A program made the position numbers and the translations under genes. Below the pieces are notes generated by a model. That model did not search any database. It saw only the letters and a list, made by a program, of their open reading frames with translations, and was not told the DNA's origin. Below, piece by piece: positions 26,643-29,599 of a DNA stretch of 53,966 bases. Each line of letters opens with the position of its first letter. Position 1 is the first letter of the stretch. Location of the stretch: the NCBI GenBank assembly GCA_938001915.1, contig CALLBD010000096.1:1-53966 (forward strand), written 5' to 3'. This stretch comes from an uncultured Caulobacterales bacterium. Lineage in GTDB: Bacteria; Pseudomonadota; Alphaproteobacteria; Caulobacterales; Maricaulaceae.

Positions 26643-27698
26643 CTATTTCTTCAAACCATGTTTGCGCATCAGCCCGCGAAATTGATGATAAGTCAGCTCT
26701 AAATATTCAGCGGCTTTGCCTTGGTGATTGCCACTGGCTTGCAGGGCTTCCAGAATTAGATTGCGTTCAAAGGCGAGAACGCGGGCTTGAAACCCTGGGT
26801 CTGGTGGCAGCAGGCTCTCTCTTGCGGGCGGGAGGTGTTCAAGAGGTTCAGATGAAGGGGCAGGGGGTGTTGCGGCGGTTTCGGATGAAGTGCCGCCTAG
26901 GCGGTGCGGGCTCGCGAAAGGGTCAAATCTGAGCGGGCCCGCCGGGCCGCCGCCAATGGGGTCGGATAAGGTCTCATCCGCGAGCCAGGCTTTGGCCGTG
27001 TTACGTTCAATGACGGCTTTTAGCTCGCGCACATTTCCGGGCCACTCCCGCGCGAGCAAGGCTTCGCTGGCTTCGGCGGTGAAGCCAGGGAAACGATCTG
27101 CGCCTAATTCGGCGGCAATCTTGCGGCCAAAATGATCCGATAAGGGCAGGATATCATCGCGTCGCGCGCGCAGGGGCGGCAAGGTCAGGACTTCGAACGC
27201 CAGACGGTCGAGCAGGTCTGCCCGAAAATCCCCGCGCGCGACGGCGCCTGGCAAATCAATTGCGCTGGCGGAGATAACGCGCACATCGACTTCTTGTTCG
27301 GCATGTTCGCCGCTGGCTTCATAGCGGCCATATTCAACCGCGCCCATGAGCTTTTCTTGGAGGCGAGGGGAGACCGCGTCAATATTATCGAGAAAGATTG
27401 TCCCCTCATCCGCATGATAGAATTTCCCGTTGGTGTCGGCACGCCCGTCCAGAAAGCTCTCTCCGAAAAGTTCCTCATCCAGTCTCTGATCGGTAAAGGC
27501 GGCGCAATTGACTGTTATGAAGACCTTTTCCCATCGCGGCGATAAGAAGTGGAGGCGTTTTGCAATGAGCTCTTTGCCCGTGCCGCGCTCTCCCACGAGT
27601 AAAACAGGGCGTTCCAGCACCGCAGAGTCGGATACGCGGTCCAGAATCGCAAGATACGCTTGGCTTTGTCCAATGGGTTGGGGAGGTAGAGCGGCCAT
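26643..27698 (-). CDS. pspF: PspF-like enhancer-binding protein with degenerate sigma54-contact loop
   Basis: A 351-residue AAA+ protein with no regulatory domain in front, as in PspF. Walker A is GERGTGKE (36-43), the arginine fingers R159 and R165 are in FRADLLDRLAF, and WPGNVRELKAVIE and DPFASP follow. The C-terminal helix-turn-helix NHQGKAAEYLELTYHQFRGL closely resembles that of E. coli PspF. Two key features are missing. After ELFG (76-79) the sequence is ESFLDGRADTNGKF, three residues short and without the GAFTGA loop that engages sigma54. Walker B reads FLDN, with Asn105 where PspF has Glu108. DNA binding is probably intact, while sigma54 activation is doubtful. ATG 27698 is preferred over TTG 27716. 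Confidence 0.85.
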   Translation of the reverse strand: MAALPPQPIGQSQAYLAILDRVSDSAVLERPVLLVGERGTGKELIAKRLHFLSPRWEKVFITVNCAAFTDQRLDEELFGESFLDGRADTNGKFYHADEGTIFLDNIDAVSPRLQEKLMGAVEYGRYEASGEHAEQEVDVRVISASAIDLPGAVARGDFRADLLDRLAFEVLTLPPLRARRDDILPLSDHFGRKIAAELGADRFPGFTAEASEALLAREWPGNVRELKAVIERNTAKAWLADETLSDPIGGGPAGPLRFDPFASPHRLGGTSSETAATPPAPSSEPLEHLPPARESLLPPDPGFQARVLAFERNLILEALQASGNHQGKAAEYLELTYHQFRGLMRKHGLKK

Positions 27699-27711
27699 AT
27701 TAGTGTTATTT

Positions 27712-27758
27712 ACCAAATTGTATTGGTTTATTATACCAAATATTAGTAAAAAATACTA
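27712..27758. promoter_or_regulatory. AT-rich inverted repeats between pspF and the psp operon
   Basis: ACCAA-N6-TTGGT (27712-27727), a second ACCAA-ATA-TTAGT (27735-27747) and TAGTA-AAAAA-TACTA (27744-27758) follow each other just upstream of pspF. They lie where a regulator controlling both divergent units could bind. No GG-N10-GC (sigma54) element is visible on the plus strand between 27699 and 27955. Confidence 0.45.
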
Positions 27759-27955
27759 TTTATTTCTGCCTTAAGAAGCACGCAAAATAAATTATCCAAT
27801 AAATACAGTTACTTAAAAATATTCGACAAACTCGCTGCATGTCCCCATCTTGAGTGTGTCAGCGATACGCAGCCGCGTTTCGCCAGATAGGAGACGAAAC
27901 TCTGGGGTGTGCCAATCCCAGGTTTCGCAACGGAATATAGAGGAGATTATAAAGA

Positions 27956-28090
27956 ATGAGCCGCTACACAGATTCATCAGATGACTGGCGCGCCAAAGGG
28001 GCGCGCTTCGTGAAATATCTTAAATCCCGTCCACCCGAATGCTGGGGCTTTTTTGCCGTTGGCATCGTGGTCGCGAAGATTTTTCTTTAG
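27956..28090 (+). CDS. small membrane protein, first gene of the psp operon (44 residues)
   Basis: A 44-codon frame starting MSRYTDSSDDWRAKGARF, with a single C-terminal membrane helix preceded by basic residues (KYLKSRPPECWGFFAVGIVV, then AKIFL). AGGAG at 27941-27945 is a good ribosome binding site 10 bases before the ATG, and the stop lies 51 bases before pspA. The layout (charged cytoplasmic segment, KSRPPE boundary, hydrophobic end) is that of a small tail-anchored membrane protein. It is not PspB, PspC or PspD by sequence. I infer co-transcription with pspA and a role in membrane-stress sensing. Confidence 0.7.
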   Translation: MSRYTDSSDDWRAKGARFVKYLKSRPPECWGFFAVGIVVAKIFL

Positions 28091-28141: not shown

Positions 28142-28843
28142 ATGGGTATTTTTTCCCGCATGGGTGACATCATTAACTCGAACCTCAACTCACTGATCGA
28201 CAGAGCCGAAAATCCTGAAAAGATTGCACGCTTAATTATCCAAGAGATGGAAGACACACTTGTCGAAGTTCGCACGGACGCCGCCCGTAATATTGCTGAG
28301 CGTAAAGAGCTTTCCCGCAAAGCCGATGACTACGCCGCCCGCGCCGCGAATTGGGAAGCCAAAGCGGAACTGGCGCTCACGAAGGGCCGTGAAGATTTAG
28401 CGCGTGGTGCTTTATCGGCCAAGCAACAATCCGAGCAAATGGTTGACGTCGTAGAAAGCGAAATCGCCGTTCTGGACGAAGCCGTTGCAAAAGCCGATGA
28501 GGACCTTGCCAAGCTTCAGACAAAGTTGAACGAAGCCAAGGCCAAACATAAAGCGCTCAACATGCGCAGTTCTGTTGCCAAAGGCCAAATCAAAATGCGC
28601 CAAATGGTACGCGATACAAAGGTAGAAGATGCACTGGCGCGCTATGAGCGGATGGAACGCAAAGTCGATGAGCTGGAAGCCCATGTCGAGAGTTTCGACC
28701 TCGGCGGCGGCGGTGACAGCTTGGAAAGTCAATTTGCCGAACTCGAAGCCAATGATGCGATTGAGGACGAATTGGCGAGCCTGAAGGCGCGCATCAATAA
28801 GCCCAAGGCGGCGAATGGTGCCAAGAAGAAAAAAGCGGGTTAG
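28142..28843 (+). CDS. pspA: phage shock protein A
   Basis: A 233-residue peripheral membrane protein of the PspA/Vipp1 (ESCRT-III-like) family that binds stressed inner membrane and, in E. coli, inhibits PspF. It starts MGIFSRMGDIINSNLNSLID (amphipathic helix 1), with the family segment ENPEKIARLIIQEMEDTLVE. Long coiled-coil helices follow to about residue 190, and the end is Lys-rich (KPKAANGAKKKKAG). An FDLGGGGDSLESQFAELE hinge precedes the last helix. AGGAG 8 bases before the ATG. Because the neighbouring PspF appears unable to drive sigma54, PspA may regulate something else here. Confidence 0.96.
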   Translation: MGIFSRMGDIINSNLNSLIDRAENPEKIARLIIQEMEDTLVEVRTDAARNIAERKELSRKADDYAARAANWEAKAELALTKGREDLARGALSAKQQSEQMVDVVESEIAVLDEAVAKADEDLAKLQTKLNEAKAKHKALNMRSSVAKGQIKMRQMVRDTKVEDALARYERMERKVDELEAHVESFDLGGGGDSLESQFAELEANDAIEDELASLKARINKPKAANGAKKKKAG

Positions 28844-28967: not shown

Positions 28968-29183
28968 ATGAATTTAGTTGCCCTTGCACCGTTTTTGATG
29001 GTCGTCGGTATTGTCTGGATTAGCCTGCATTATAAGCACCTGAATAAGACAGCTGGCACTATCACAGATGATCAAGCGATGGAGTTGACGCAAATGTCAA
29101 AAATCGCTGATATTTTGGACCAGAGGGTCGCTGTATTAGAGCGAATTCTCGATGACGAAATTCCGAATTGGAGAGAAAAATGA
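28968..29183 (+). CDS. pspB: phage shock protein B
   Basis: A 71-residue inner-membrane protein. One N-terminal membrane helix (LVALAPFLMVVGIVWISLHY) is followed by a cytoplasmic leucine-zipper-like helix (MSKIADILDQRVAVLERILD) and the typical ending DDEIPNWREK. In the E. coli model PspB and PspC relay membrane stress and release PspA from PspF. AGAAAGG lies upstream. The stop codon overlaps the pspC start in ATGA, implying translational coupling. Confidence 0.93.
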   Translation: MNLVALAPFLMVVGIVWISLHYKHLNKTAGTITDDQAMELTQMSKIADILDQRVAVLERILDDEIPNWREK

Positions 29184-29599
29184 GTCCCGCAACGGAGCCA
29201 AATAGCGCCGGCAGGCCTCGGCTGACCCGCAATAAAGTAGATGGAAAACTTGGCGGCGTTTGCGCTGGTATCGCGGATTATCTCGGATGGGATCACAATA
29301 TGGTGCGCATCCTGACAATCTTGTTGGTGCTTTTCACCGCCTTGCCGCTGATTGCCTATTTTATTCTTTGGATTGTGATGCCCAAGAATACGCGCGCCCC
29401 TTATATCCGAGAGTATCGAGAGCAAACGCAGTCGCGACAGAAACAGAAAGCGGCAGCCGGGACAGCCGGATCGTCGACGACCTACTCAGACGTTCAATCC
29501 AAATTCCGGTCACTCGAAATGCGTTTGCAGGATTTAGAGAGATCTATCACGTCGAAGGAATGGAAGCTCAATCGCGATTTTCGCGACCTTGAAAGCTAA
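29180..29599 (+). CDS. pspC: phage shock protein C
   Basis: A 139-residue PspC-domain protein: RNKVDGKLGGVCAGIADYLG and WDHNMVRILTILLVLFTALP, then IAYFILWIVMP (two membrane segments). A cytoplasmic or periplasmic helical tail (YSDVQSKFRSLEMRLQDLER) is typical of proteobacterial PspC. ATG 29180 is chosen because GGAGAGA precedes it and it overlaps the pspB stop. It acts with PspB in the membrane. A 9-bp GC hairpin follows the gene. Confidence 0.93.
   Translation: MSPATEPNSAGRPRLTRNKVDGKLGGVCAGIADYLGWDHNMVRILTILLVLFTALPLIAYFILWIVMPKNTRAPYIREYREQTQSRQKQKAAAGTAGSSTTYSDVQSKFRSLEMRLQDLERSITSKEWKLNRDFRDLES

Follow-up and report, generated by a model that had tools for sequence, protein, structure and literature searches.

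A PspF that lacks GAFTGA and the Walker B glutamate has very probably left sigma54 in relatives of Litorimonas, Hellea, and Robiginitomaculum

PspF is a model protein for the AAA+ activators that open sigma54 promoters. The gene that stands divergent from pspABC in the window (the whole stretch of DNA analysed here, 53,966 nucleotides of contig CALLBD010000096.1 from an uncultured Caulobacterales bacterium, assembly GCA_938001915.1) codes for a PspF that has no GAFTGA motif in loop L1 and carries FLDN as its Walker B motif. This locus raises the question as to how such a protein may still regulate a psp operon, and by way of which sigma factor. An original prediction, made from the letters of the DNA alone, had described a PspF without GAFTGA, three residues short and with FLDN in Walker B, and this description was borne out (Table 1).

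The open reading frame (positions 26643–27716, minus strand) codes for 357 residues from a TTG start, or 351 residues from the ATG at 27698. We consider this ATG (MAALPPQ...), which is also the start given in the original prediction, the likely start of pspF, because the agreement with related proteins begins at about this point. The best NCBIfam model is that of PspF (TIGR02974), with a score of 356.4 bits that is below the cut-off of 443.55. PF00158, PF25601, and PF02954 all score above their cut-offs and describe an AAA+ fold with a C-terminal Fis-type helix-turn-helix. The predicted structure reached a pLDDT of 90.4 with an alignment of 54 rows and of 56.6 with an alignment of 9 rows, and the nearest solved fold to this model is that of PspF (2c99, TM 0.94 by target length). 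The segment FRADLLDRL, which contains R162 and R168, is retained. The locus resembles that of E. coli in its gene order (pspF divergent from pspA-pspB-pspC), in the combination of an AAA+ domain with a helix-turn-helix and no regulatory domain, and in the W56 docking loop.

Table 1. Features of the pspF–psp region, in coordinates of the window. Regulatory elements are predictions.
Feature	Position	Strand	Remarks
pspF variant	26643..27698	-	AAA+ domain and Fis-type helix-turn-helix; no GAFTGA; Walker B FLDN
Helix-turn-helix HQGKAAEYLELTYHQFRGLMRKH	26658..26726	-	present in PspF of the window
Walker B FLDN	27384..27395	-	N in place of E108 of E. coli PspF
Remnant of loop L1 ESFLDGRADTNGKF	27420..27461	-	after ELFG; 3 residues shorter than in E. 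coli PspF; no GAFTGA
Trp equivalent to W56 (PspA-docking loop)	27531..27533	-	kept; 46/46 altered loci
Walker A GERGTGKE	27570..27593	-	kept; K42 in 46/46 altered loci
Predicted operator TTAGT-N7-ACCAA	27700..27716	.	centre 150 bp from predicted start of the pspA operon
Predicted operator TTGGT-N7-ACCAA	27723..27739	.	centre 127 bp from predicted start
Predicted operator TTAGT-N7-ACTAT (9/10)	27743..27759	.	centre 107 bp from predicted start
Weak, degraded IHF-like box ATACAGTTACTTA	27803..27815	+	stronger in many relatives; not the best match of the region in the window
Putative -35 TCGACA	27823..27828	+	positional conservation; not significant alone
Putative -10 CATCTT	27846..27851	+	17-bp spacer; predicted start 27858
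Small open reading frame, 44 aa (MSRYTDSS...ECWGFFAVGIVVAKIFL)	27956..28090	+	conserved; upstream of pspA
pspA	28142..28843	+	PF04012 157.4 bits; TIGR02977 279.4, above cut-off 242.95
pspB	28968..29183	+	TIGR02976 62.2, above cut-off 51.7
pspC	29168..29599	+	PF04024 77.7, above 25; TIGR02978 101, cut-off 104 narrowly missed

A search of 137 genomes from the GTDB family of the window, marine bacteria related to Litorimonas, Hellea, and Robiginitomaculum, returned 70 pspF loci from 69 genomes. One duplicate and six rows of other bEBPs were removed from this set, and four fragmentary PspF matches are not included. In each of the 70 loci pspA is divergent from pspF. GAFTGA and the Walker B glutamate are both present in 24 loci and both absent from 46. 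Since the same 46 loci that lack GAFTGA also lack the glutamate (E108 is kept in 24/24 GAFTGA loci and in 0/46 altered loci), the loss of the motif is neither chance nor a sequencing error in the loop, the artifact against which the original prediction had cautioned. The comparison with relatives that it had recommended shows instead a loss shared by 46 of the 70 loci of the family.

The altered loci fall into groups A (n = 26, including the window), A9 (n = 9), B (n = 8), and C (n = 3), in which L1 has 3, 9, 7, and 9 residues fewer than in E. coli, respectively. The nearest named genome is that of Litorimonas cladophorae (Maricaulales, Robiginitomaculaceae; 80% identical). Among the best 80 of 584 confirmed named loci, five are without the strict GAFTGA motif; three of these, from Litorimonas, Hellea, and one Robiginitomaculum, have the altered form, and the remaining two read GSFTDA and GAYTGA. 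The genera designated g16 and g17 each contain both GAFTGA and altered pspF. One genome (G117) has two psp loci (L048 and L053), and in both of them an altered pspF stands divergent from a pspA. Of the 42 family genomes that have no full PspF match, just 8 have a PspA-family match, and the whole psp system seems to be absent from much of the family.

E108 is the glutamate switch of E. coli PspF, and a patch consisting of Y51, L52, and W56 docks PspA, according to the available text of PMC3791423. The Vmax of the E108Q variant is given as 0.07 versus 39.51 per min, and the Km as 100 versus 250 μM (available text of PMC3419264). A crystal structure of E108Q PspF with ATP exists (4qnr). Because the Vmax collapses in E108Q, the Km is lower, and ATP-bound crystals are known, we expect by analogy that the altered PspF should bind ATP with scarcely any hydrolysis.

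The residues around this site have fared differently. K42, L52, and W56 are kept in all 46 altered loci, N64 and the sensor II residue R227 in 45 each, D107 in 42, R168 in 32, and R162 in 27. Position Y51 is Phe in 70/70 loci, canonical ones included. The conservation of docking-loop residues is compatible with the earlier idea of a PspA-docking protein, which describes a property of this PspF and not an alternative reading of its function. Every locus of groups A9 and B has lost the arginine finger R162, and the 8 B loci have lost R168 as well. Since R162 is lost in 19/46 and R168 in 14/46 altered loci, some altered PspF proteins may not assemble into an ATP-dependent ring.

These catalytic losses, deepest in two subclades (R162 and R168 in the 8 B loci, R162 in the 9 A9 loci), could be taken to mean that altered pspF is a decaying gene without function, next to a constitutive psp operon. 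The reading frames, however, are open throughout the clade. Median dN/dS values for the AAA+ domain, which are rough because dS is near saturation, were 0.127 in group A (7 usable pairs) and 0.162 in group B (10 pairs), and 0.131 (62 pairs) and 0.129 (3 pairs) among GAFTGA loci. For the helix-turn-helix the medians, likewise rough at high dS, were 0.150 in group A and 0.084 in group B. These ratios indicate that both domains of the altered protein are under purifying selection. The predicted operators discussed below are also kept in 41 of the 46 altered loci, which again argues against decay. We consider this explanation extremely improbable.

The promoter of the psp operon differs between the two types of loci as well. 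We computed a -24/-12 score over the pspF–pspA interval, with shuffle controls and with what we take to be the consensus (maximum score 23.5). All 24 GAFTGA loci contain a near-consensus element with a score of 22–23.5, versus 16–19.5 in all 46 altered loci. Scattered weak look-alikes occur in a few altered loci (shuffle p 0.02–0.05). The best look-alike in the window (19.0/23.5, p 0.04) lies within a small open reading frame at a position that is not conserved, and was dismissed. The absence of a sigma54 promoter from 46/46 altered loci and its presence in 24/24 GAFTGA loci is the strongest support for the view, already part of the original prediction, that this psp operon is probably under another sigma factor.

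Sigma54 itself is still encoded. One rpoN is present in the genome of the window (2.6 Mb in 120 contigs, completeness 89.65%), so the loss of rpoN that the prediction had considered does not apply here. The gene was found in 37 of 45 altered-form genomes and 23 of 24 GAFTGA genomes, and many of the genomes in which it was missed are incomplete. Further PspF copies had also been considered, and among the matches listed in the genome of the window there is no second GAFTGA PspF; the other bEBP-type genes listed are one GSFTGA protein and two of the NtrC/NtrX type. The presence of rpoN and of a GSFTGA activator, together with a Phe position in L1 that is kept in 23/26 group A loci, leaves room for the idea that altered PspF still activates sigma54, either by means of an unusual loop or together with a further GAFTGA activator from the same genome. 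With no altered locus scoring above 19.5 for -24/-12 and every GAFTGA locus scoring at least 22, and with E108 absent from all 46 altered proteins and R162 from 19, we judge this idea highly improbable. The altered PspF very probably cannot open sigma54 promoters, as predicted, and we are confident that it has left sigma54.

On contig 26 of the same genome (L013), two tandem NtrC/NtrX-type genes are without an intact GAFTGA, one reading GATGPD and one being loop-less. The loss of the sigma54 loop in this genome therefore extends beyond PspF.

Alignments of the altered groups reveal a common order at the former place of the -24/-12 element: an IHF-like box, about 7 bp, TCGACA/GTGACA or alike, a spacer, and CATCTT/CATATT or alike. 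The IHF consensus used for this box is one that we assume. The spacer between the -35-like and -10-like elements is 17 bp long in 32 altered loci, 16 bp in 11, and 18 bp in 3. A layout pattern written after viewing these same loci (CA(A/G)-N-TA, -35-like element, 15–18, -10-like element) matched 46/46 altered loci; its first form had matched 41/46. The relaxed form, fitted afterwards, matched 1/24 canonical loci and 1.6% of shuffled regions. Scores for -35/-10 beside the best IHF-like match were mostly no better than those of shuffles when taken locus by locus, and only the position across loci is convincing. All altered groups have a similar layout, and the start predicted from it is positioned, with respect to the operators, where the sigma54 start lies. 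An alignment of groES upstream regions (12 loci) with the psp layout did not indicate the sigma70-family factor. Unlike E. coli PspF and its target, the altered system thus combines a protein without GAFTGA and Walker B glutamate with an interval that has no -24/-12 element and, at the same place, a putative promoter of sigma70-family-like layout.

A dyad search without a prior motif gave TTAG-N9-CTAA and TAGT-N7-ACTA, from which we derived the 17-bp operator TTRGT-N7-ACYAA. Matches of at least 9/10 occur in 41/46 altered loci (1.52 per locus versus 0.09 in shuffles) and in 6/6 GAFTGA sisters from g16 and g17, but in 2/18 other GAFTGA loci (g18 and g4). With a threshold of at least 8/10, operators are found at -107, -128, and -150 in 33, 21, and 39 of the 46 altered loci, compared with 6/230 at five control offsets. 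Counted from the sigma54 start, the same three positions are occupied in 4, 3, and 6 of the 6 g16/g17 GAFTGA loci (control 0/30), and in 2, 6, and 3 of the 18 g18/g4 loci (control 0/90). In E. coli K-12, a single 9/10 match (TTAGTGTAATTCGCTAA) lies upstream of the sigma54 promoter of psp, and the operator TTAGT-N7-RCTAA and the order operator-IHF-promoter are similar as well. These patterns indicate that the upstream operators are kept in place through the loss of GAFTGA. Together with the helix-turn-helix and the position of pspA, they support the earlier suggestion that the protein has retained DNA binding and its place divergent to pspA. In the whole genome of the window there are 9 full operator matches, 2 of them in the window, versus 12 for a reversed control pattern, and for this reason we claim no wider regulon.

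E. coli PspF binds DNA and forms loops with the aid of IHF, and represses its own sigma70 promoter (available text of PMC3709507). TyrR, a protein without GAFTGA named in PMC3162934, is a known repressor. In the altered loci the predicted operators adjoin the pspF start codon on its upstream side, which makes self-repression of pspF probable. These observations are in line with the role of repressor that the original prediction had offered. In such a reading, altered PspF would repress its own gene and possibly pspA, would be relieved by PspA or membrane stress, and would leave pspA to an activator-free promoter of the sigma70 family. As a first choice this reading did not hold; it is the chief rival to the proposal below, and we regard it as rather improbable. 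The operators lie about 107–150 bp upstream of the predicted start of the pspA operon, in the same phase as in the sigma54 relatives, and would be a poor site for blocking; self-repression alone leaves the PspA-docking residues in 46/46 loci unexplained. Because the geometry is that of the enhancers of the GAFTGA relatives, an activator from a distance fits better than a blocker of pspA, and activation appears to be the likelier sign of PspF action.

We propose, with moderate confidence, that altered PspF is an ATP-binding, non-hydrolyzing enhancer regulator at a sigma70-family psp promoter, probably as an activator, and still docked by PspA. An ATP-bound and hydrolysis-poor PspF oligomer would sit on tandem operators near -107, -128, and -150. 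A DNA bend at the IHF-like box, immediately before the -35 element, would aid contact between PspF and sigma70-family RNA polymerase. The predicted start of this promoter is at the position of the former sigma54 start. PspA docked on the W56 loop would keep PspF inactive until membrane stress pulls PspA off. PspF would probably repress its own gene too, and rpoN would be retained for other uses. That the sigma factor belongs to the sigma70 family and that PspA docks on the altered protein is what we infer from promoter layout and conserved residues.

How often did this change occur? In an RpoN tree of 58 genomes the altered state takes 3 changes, 2 of them on well-supported branches, and a single altered clade is rejected (AU p = 0.006). 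This tree and the differing loop deletions (-3, -7, -9) favor multiple losses, and GAFTGA was likely lost more than once. On the other hand, a PspA tree does not reject one altered clade (AU p 0.245), such a clade is kept in 30% of PspF bootstrap trees, and the new promoter layout is similar across all altered groups. The altered form may then have had a single origin, followed by re-entry of a GAFTGA pspF–pspA pair into g16 and g17 by transfer, with the switch otherwise as proposed above. We think this unlikely in view of the RpoN tree and of deletions that vary by group, and because the g16/g17 GAFTGA proteins branch beside the altered ones and not with distant PspF. Conversion on several occasions is put forward tentatively, as a possibility in which we believe somewhat less than we doubt it: PspF would have become an ATP-binding-only enhancer protein for the sigma70 family two to three times independently. 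Each time the promoter would have been swapped in place with the same start site, keeping the enhancer sites, their helical phase, the IHF-like box, and control by PspA via the W56 loop.

The principle that bEBPs without GAFTGA can act at sigma70 is already known from some NtrC proteins; for PspF we found no report. The primary paper on NtrC from Rhodobacter capsulatus is reportedly that of Bowman and Kranz from 1998. This NtrC is without GAFTGA and works with RpoD (available text of PMC10274813 and PMC6925177). Like altered PspF, in which Walker A is kept, it is a bEBP with a deleted GAFTGA loop that has moved away from sigma54. Activators of this type are characterized by tandem binding sites over 100 bp ahead of the start, by a target promoter that sigma70 reads, and by activation that takes ATP binding but not hydrolysis; in the window, operators at about -107, -127, and -150 are predicted relative to a start that is itself predicted. 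As far as these sources describe it, R. capsulatus NtrC is a phosphorylation-controlled response regulator with a different and larger loop deletion, whereas altered PspF lacks a receiver domain and is presumably under the control of PspA. NtrC from the related alphaproteobacterium Caulobacter crescentus has an 8-residue deletion in L1 that includes GAFTGA, and is both an activator and a repressor at sigma70 promoters (available text of PMC10274813). In contrast to altered PspF, it is described as serving a nitrogen regulon with many targets and as depending on phosphorylation. TyrR, HupR, and VpsR, named in PMC3162934 and PMC10274813, are further AAA+ members of the bEBP family that have no GAFTGA, but their sensory domains and regulons are different. 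A survey of PSP evolution places PspF outside its detailed analysis (PMC11237479, available text), and a bEBP survey filtered out GAFTGA-defective proteins and placed them in a supplementary list (PMC3162934, available text). Literature on PspF without GAFTGA or on sigma54-independent psp, to the extent of its accessible text, contained no altered PspF, and the supplement of PMC3162934 may list some. The earlier claim of an undescribed arrangement is partly right: it appears to hold for PspF, and not for the principle, which Rhodobacter and Caulobacter NtrC exemplify.

Within the family, nature provides a series of loci that have lost the sigma54-contact loop, the glutamate switch, and the -24/-12 element together but retain DNA binding and the residues for PspA docking. 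Evolution has thereby separated the functions of PspF, and species with GAFTGA and altered proteins can be compared within one genus. This makes it testable how a regulator may exchange sigma54 for another sigma factor and yet keep its target. If the reading of repeated conversion is true, the series is a natural, repeated switch of sigma class at one promoter. In this group it is wrong to annotate such genes as sigma54 activators of psp.

Finally, the region upstream of pspA contains a small open reading frame of 44–57 codons with the motif ...ECWGFFxAG... and a hydrophobic C-terminal half. It occurs in 63/70 family loci with both types of PspF and in 17 of the 80 best named loci, and not in E. 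coli. We consider its product a candidate small membrane protein, as yet unnamed, of the psp operon in alphaproteobacteria. A second small frame (MT[YF]RT..., Arg-rich, often ending in G[FL]G[IF]) lies between pspF and the first, e.g., in L016, L024, and L038. Searches of Pfam and NCBIfam returned no credible family for either frame. The second frame is present in 47/70 family loci and 0/18 g18/g4 loci, and is absent from the window, where the pspF–pspA interval falls about 220 bp short of that in relatives.
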